Assembly: GCA_027365485.1 (NCBI GenBank) | Contig: DAHXNH010000046.1 | Span: 1 to 44,959, forward strand | Length of the DNA stretch: 44,959 nt | Reading direction: 5' to 3' | Origin: Clostridiales bacterium | Lineage (GTDB): Bacteria; Bacillota; Sulfobacillia; Sulfobacillales; Sulfobacillaceae | Shown: positions 26,965-28,650 of the stretch, in pieces | Position numbering within the stretch: the first letter of the stretch is position 1 | Layout of the letters: each line of letters begins with the position of its first letter | Notes under the pieces: generated by a model | What the model was told of the DNA's origin: nothing | Seen by the model: only the letters and a program-made list of their open reading frames with translations | Database searches by the model: none | Program-made: the position numbers and the translations under genes

Positions 26965-26993
26965 TTGGCGATCCTTGCCAAGAACCTTATAAT
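26965..26993 (+). promoter_or_regulatory. Strong promoter of the MazG-like gene
   Basis: TTGGCG (26965-26970), exactly 17 bases, then perfect TATAAT (26988-26993). Transcription should start near 27000, so the RNA begins just before a GC-rich hairpin at 27011-27034. Confidence 0.8.
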
Positions 26994-27010
26994 AGACGGG
27001 AACGGAGATG

Positions 27011-27034
27011 GTGCCGCCCCTGCCGGGGCGGCAC
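27011..27034 (+). promoter_or_regulatory. GC-rich leader hairpin upstream of the MazG-like gene
   Basis: GTGCCGCCCC-TGCC-GGGGCGGCAC is a perfect 10-bp stem with a 4-base loop, starting about 10 bases after the predicted transcription start and 25 bases before the GGAGGAGGG ribosome site. It may protect the 5' end of the RNA; a regulatory role is a guess. Confidence 0.6.
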
Positions 27035-27073
27035 GACGGTAGGCCATTCAACCATCCCGGAGGAGGGTTTCGG

Positions 27074-27415
27074 ATCGCGGACACAGATGCTCTAAGGCAA
27101 ATAGCGGAGGCGGTCGCTATGTTTAATCGCCGTCGCCACTGGGATCCTTCCGCCAAAGATTTAGCCATGTCCATCGCGATCGAGTCAGCCGAACTGATGG
27201 AACATTTTCAGTGGGGTTCAGGGGCCTCGTCCGATCCTGAGACCTTGGACGCCATCCGCTTTGAGGTCGCCGACGTCATGATCTATCTGCTCCACTTTTG
27301 CAGGACCATGGACATCGATCTCGCCCAATCCGTACTGGATAAGCTGGCTATCAACGAAGTGCGTTTTCCCGCCTCCGATTCCCCGGCACAAGCCTCTTCT
27401 CGTTCTCTGGGATAG
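27074..27415 (+). CDS. MazG-like nucleotide pyrophosphohydrolase, apparent ATC start
   Basis: All-alpha NTP pyrophosphohydrolase of about 113 residues that would hydrolyse (d)NTPs to monophosphate and pyrophosphate. Motifs: RRRHWDPSAKDLAMSIAIESAELMEHFQW (two parts, with the metal-binding E..E pair in IESAELMEHF) and RFEVADVMIYLLHF (E..D). The family N-terminus fits beginning at ADTDALRQIAEAVAMF. The ideal ribosome site GGAGGAGG (27059-27066) lies 7 bases before ATC 27074, and no ATG, GTG or TTG is suitably placed. ATG 27008 and GTG 27011 are in frame but lie at the transcript tip and in the leader hairpin; ATG 27119 would cut off helix 1. So ATC, a rare start codon, is the best reading. Confidence 0.75.
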   Translation: MADTDALRQIAEAVAMFNRRRHWDPSAKDLAMSIAIESAELMEHFQWGSGASSDPETLDAIRFEVADVMIYLLHFCRTMDIDLAQSVLDKLAINEVRFPASDSPAQASSRSLG

Positions 27416-28618: not shown

Positions 28619-28650
28619 ACTCGACCCGAAGGATTGCCTTCGGGTCGAGT
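28619..28650 (+). terminator. Perfect 14-bp hairpin after the aldo/keto reductase gene
   Basis: ACTCGACCCGAAGG-ATTG-CCTTCGGGTCGAGT, 18 bases past the stop. The stem is perfect, but no T-run follows, so it may depend on Rho or act as a 3' end stabiliser. Confidence 0.6.

Follow-up and report, generated by a model that had tools for sequence, protein, structure and literature searches.

A MazG-like gene of a Sulfobacillaceae bacterium very probably starts at the rare codon ATC, as in its sister species

The stretch of DNA analysed here (the window, 44,959 nucleotides; the elements of the gene described below lie on its forward strand) carries a MazG-like gene that very probably starts at the rare codon ATC (27074-27076), as does its counterpart in a sister species of the same genus. 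We infer that ribosomes initiate at this codon with a low yield and under the influence of initiation factor IF3, and the following account is, as a whole, likely in our judgement. The mRNA would begin near 27000, from the gene's own promoter, and would carry a leader of approximately 74 nt that is untranslated in the MazG-like frame. A strong Shine-Dalgarno sequence, GGAGGAGGG (27059-27067), would hold the 30S subunit and compensate for the weak codon, and AUC would pair with initiator fMet-tRNA at all but its third position, so that the product, a 113-residue MazG-like nucleotide pyrophosphohydrolase (27074-27415), would be made at a reduced level, probably restrained by IF3. The sequence elements, the conservation of the Shine-Dalgarno sequence and of ATC, the lack of any usable canonical start in the sister gene, the agreement with the N-termini of the family and the non-canonical start codon of infC can all be read directly from the genomes compared.

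The product is predicted to be a DCTPP1-like pyrophosphohydrolase of the MazG family. It matches PF12643 with 30.1 bits (cut-off 27), and profile searches against PDB returned 4qgp (E=9e-33) and human DCTPP1/RS21-C6 (E=1e-27). The match to the DCTPP1/RS21-C6-like all-alpha NTP pyrophosphatases of the MazG superfamily (4qgp, 6sqw, 2oie) extends along nearly the whole domain and includes the ExxE and ExxD metal-binding residues, E37, E40, E64 and D67, which are invariant in 35 sequences. Unlike these proteins, the one in the window is known here from its sequence and a predicted model, and its identity to relatives outside the genus is at most about 54%.

All elements named in an earlier, sequence-only reading of this locus, namely the promoter, ATG 27008, GTG 27011, the leader stem, the octamer GGAGGAGG, ATC and ATG 27119, were found where it had placed them. 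The promoter-like sequence consists of TTGGCG from 26965, a 17-nt spacer and TATAAT at 26988-26993; matches of this kind are not above chance in the window (two found against 1.2 expected in a shuffle test), and the region from the -35 box to ATG 27008 (26965-27010) is identical at 46 of 46 positions in the sister species. A perfect inverted repeat, TTGGC-GATCCTT-GCCAA (26965-26981), overlaps the -35 box, is likewise identical in the sister species and has its sole exact match within the window at this place; it could be an operator. The octamer GGAGGAGG occupies 27059-27066, its run continuing with G 27067, and occurs once in the window against about two expected occurrences. ATC follows 7 nt past it, in frame with the open reading frame that ends at TAG 27413-27415, and is thus a near-cognate codon optimally spaced behind a strong Shine-Dalgarno sequence. 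This spacing alone is only suggestive, because an in-frame ATC stands 5-9 nt past an internal GGAGG at 4% of such sites in gene frames (8% for any of ATA, ATC or ATT), and the strength of the case comes from comparison. The gene is flanked by an EmrB-type MFS transporter gene on one side and an aldo/keto reductase gene on the other, with a perfect 14-bp hairpin (28619-28650) lying after the latter. No Rfam family matched in the window at gathering thresholds.

Close relatives of the gene are present in only 4 of 42 genomes of the order, namely the window's own genome, the sister species (G001, contig JAMCVM010000024.1, with a syntenic locus) and two members of another genus of the family; the locus itself is found only in the first two, which limits the comparison. 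The earlier reading had turned on whether close homologues carry ATG or GTG at the proposed site, or also ATC, and the codon is ATC in both members of the genus. From the Shine-Dalgarno sequence through ATC to the fourteenth codon after it, the two genomes agree at 60 of 60 positions, and the whole of 27059-27132, including GGAGGAGGG and ATC, shows zero substitutions, so that coding in 27059-27118 is not provable by substitution pattern. In the leader (27011-27058), 8 of 48 positions differ between the two species; among these differences is a deletion that rests on few reads, because the contig of the sister species was assembled from a metagenome and has a coverage of approximately 4.5x. The leader thus changes faster than the Shine-Dalgarno sequence plus coding region (Fisher p=8e-5), and no other part of the locus changes as fast. 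When the leader from CTG 27020 to ATC is read as protein, four codon changes are replacing and one is silent; from ATC to the stop, a stretch six times as long, three are replacing and four silent. CTG 27020 is in frame in both species, which counts against the ATC start.

These differences bear on ATG 27008 (27008-27010), the likely choice of an annotator, which together with GTG 27011 is canonical, in frame in the window's genome and open through to the family domain. A start at either codon would give a protein of 135 residues whose N-terminal tail is rich in Pro and Gly; we regard this as very unlikely. The equivalent of ATG 27008 in the sister species lies 65 nt from ATC and is out of frame, opening a frame of 28 codons that terminates within the gene, and GTG 27011 is replaced there by GCG. 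Even in the window's genome, ATG 27008 would stand about 8 nt into the inferred transcript, with a GGAG directly adjacent, and GTG 27011 sits within the stem of the leader hairpin, as the sequence-only reading had pointed out in placing the two codons at the transcript tip and in the hairpin. Upstream of ATC, the sister species has just two canonical codons in frame, a TTG located at its -35 box and another still farther away, both before the RNA start, and therefore no ATG, GTG or TTG in its transcript is able to start the whole protein. No usable canonical start for the full conserved protein is thus found: there is none in the sister transcript, and ATG 27008 and GTG 27011 are rejected by the comparison. 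A conserved upstream extension, which would speak against ATC, is not seen either, since the leader is so variable and its ATG does not share the gene's frame in the sister species, and no relative has conserved sequence that reaches up to the stretch behind ATG 27008. Just inside the gene, in another reading frame, the window contains a two-codon frame, ATG CTC TAA (27087-27095), at whose TAA the shifted ATG 27008 frame of the sister species ends.

The GC-rich leader hairpin, to which the sequence-only reading had also drawn attention, is present as a perfect 10-bp GC stem with a 4-nt loop (27011-27020/27025-27034) and is above chance, there being four such places in the window against approximately 0.3 per simulated window; the other three may be ordinary terminators. 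In the sister species, the register of the hairpin is disrupted, and the RNA folds into another GC-rich structure instead. Both species have a GC-rich, structured leader, with no pair-preserving changes seen between them, and this lack of structural conservation makes the hairpin a weak basis for any argument. The idea that it hides or exposes the start was dropped, as its 3' edge is still 24 nt short of the Shine-Dalgarno sequence and its structure is not conserved; it may simply stabilise the 5' end of the mRNA.

A wider view of the N-terminus was obtained from searches that returned 84 loci (a few of them duplicates), 73 of which could be scored. In 63 of the 73, a canonical start lies 17-32 residues ahead of the conserved W of the RxW motif (mode 23), and ATC, at 22 residues, falls where the N-termini of the family had been said to begin. 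The ten exceptions are the gene of the sister species, six loci with long upstream frames, two starts at 34-35 residues and one at 16, the last being the minimum that any of the scored relatives requires. Loci L023, L024, L029, L031, L032 and L043 were considered as further non-canonical cases and rejected, open frames of 188-278 aa preceding their domain; they look like N-terminal fusion proteins from Phycisphaerae and other lineages. In an AlphaFold model (mean pLDDT 86.8), the protein counted from ATC forms an all-alpha four-helix fold with helices at residues 4-20, 27-43, 55-78 and 83-97.

Both the family and the model matter for ATG 27119, because this codon is well spaced behind an internal GGAGG (27106-27110; the two together span 27106-27121) on which the sequence-only reading had not remarked. 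Initiation there would yield a 98-residue protein from a canonical codon at an 8-nt Shine-Dalgarno spacing, with both elements conserved in the sister species. Such a protein would begin only 7 residues before the conserved W, against the minimum of 16 among the scored relatives. ATG 27119 corresponds to residue 16, inside helix 1 (residues 4-20), so that 12 of the 17 residues of this helix would be lost in the model, in agreement with the earlier statement that this start removes the first helix. Moreover, the Sulfobacillus-related relatives G021 (ATG start) and G018 (GTG start) share the motif E.VA.F..RR.W with the window protein, and its E.VA part is encoded ahead of ATG 27119. A start at this codon would also leave GGAGGAGGG and the conservation of 27059-27118 unexplained, and we consider it quite unlikely as the start of the gene, although a minor shorter product may arise from it. 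Initiation at ATC predicts the N-terminal peptide (M)ADTDALR; a peptide that contains HDGRPFNHPGGGFR would be at odds with it.

The ATG and GTG starts of the more distant relatives G021 and G018 suggest that ATC is probably a derived state, and they would also suit a history in which an ancestral ATG decayed to ATC and left a gene that is hardly or not translated, that is, an early pseudogene. Against this highly improbable alternative, ATC is common to two species, the frame is intact with invariant ExxE/ExxD residues and four silent versus three changing codons, and the promoter and the Shine-Dalgarno sequence are unchanged in the sister species.

Initiation at ATC is also made plausible by infC, the gene of IF3, in the same genome. 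There, no ATG, GTG or TTG occurs between an in-frame TGA and the conserved KDLRIND, and the start region reads GGA GGC GAA GCG CCC ATT ACT. The start is ATT, preceded by GAGGAGG and without a canonical rival, both at G000:C63 (L099) and in the sister species (G001:C129, L098). In other genera of the family, infC starts with ATC in G002 and G005 (and in G003, judging by spacing) and with ATT in G004 and G006; elsewhere in the order, ATA is found in G034 and G035. From the ATT and ATC starts it follows that AUU and AUC, when preceded by GGAGG, very probably serve as initiation codons for the ribosomes of this lineage. In a 576-kb sample of the genome, the codons found 5-10 nt behind GGAGG were ATG (79), GTG (25), TTG (15) and ATC (14), and nearly all of the ATC cases proved on inspection to have a canonical start beside them. 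Only infC (ATT) and the MazG-like gene (ATC) lacked a well-placed canonical start among approximately 395 gene models, a count that is rough because the models are crude. Locus L122 was examined as a second candidate and rejected, as it appears to encode a signal peptide with its own downstream ATG. Separately, thrS shows the arrangement GGAGGAGG-5 nt-ATC-GCG-GTG in both species (G000:C123, L166; G001:C169, L165), which can be read in two ways, with initiation at ATC or, at a long spacing, at GTG.

A gene finder would choose for the MazG-like gene the ATG located 66 nt upstream, which is unusable in the sister species. To our knowledge, few non-canonical starts are known outside infC, and gene finders miss them; pcnB is another known gene with such a start. 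The combination of a comparative case with a positive control within the genome (infC at ATT) makes AUC initiation cleanly testable in an acid-mine lineage, and it adds to the evidence that strong Shine-Dalgarno sequences license weak start codons in Bacillota. It is also conceivable, if rather doubtful, that the genus-conserved AUC start places an enzyme that cleans the nucleotide pool under the control of IF3, its level rising when initiation fidelity or IF3 falls; if so, the gene would be a second one with an AUH start beside infC in this lineage, linking the state of translation to dNTP quality.

No literature linking MazG to a non-canonical start was found, and the ATC start proposed here is a new example of a kind already known from infC, pcnB, sigR and cvfC1/ccpN. 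The infC gene starts with AUU, AUC or AUA and is autoregulated by IF3 in E. coli, Streptomyces and S. aureus (PMC5472188, PMC13009471). It shares with the MazG-like gene a non-canonical AUH start that follows a strong Shine-Dalgarno sequence, but it encodes IF3 itself and thereby closes a feedback loop, whereas the MazG-like product is a predicted nucleotide pyrophosphohydrolase that is not known to be linked to initiation. In Streptomyces, sigR has a GTC start that is repressed by IF3 (PMC5472188). Here the likeness lies in a wrongly annotated start, a strong ribosome-binding site and a rare codon conserved within the genus, in a gene other than infC; the sigR start differs in being GTC rather than ATC, in being experimentally proven and in belonging to the first gene of a sigma/anti-sigma pair. 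Reporters in S. aureus showed that starts of this type, the known sites of which lie behind extended Shine-Dalgarno motifs, gave approximately 10% of the yield of AUG (PMC13009471), and it is because of this result and that for sigR that a low, IF3-sensitive yield may fairly be expected of the MazG-like gene. Staphylococcal cvfC1 (AUU) and ccpN (AUA) also start behind extended Shine-Dalgarno motifs (PMC13009471) and, like the gene described here, are cases from Bacillota in which an AUH start behind a long Shine-Dalgarno sequence is conserved among related species; the MazG-like gene differs from them in its AUC codon, in its product and in being recognised from sequence comparison.
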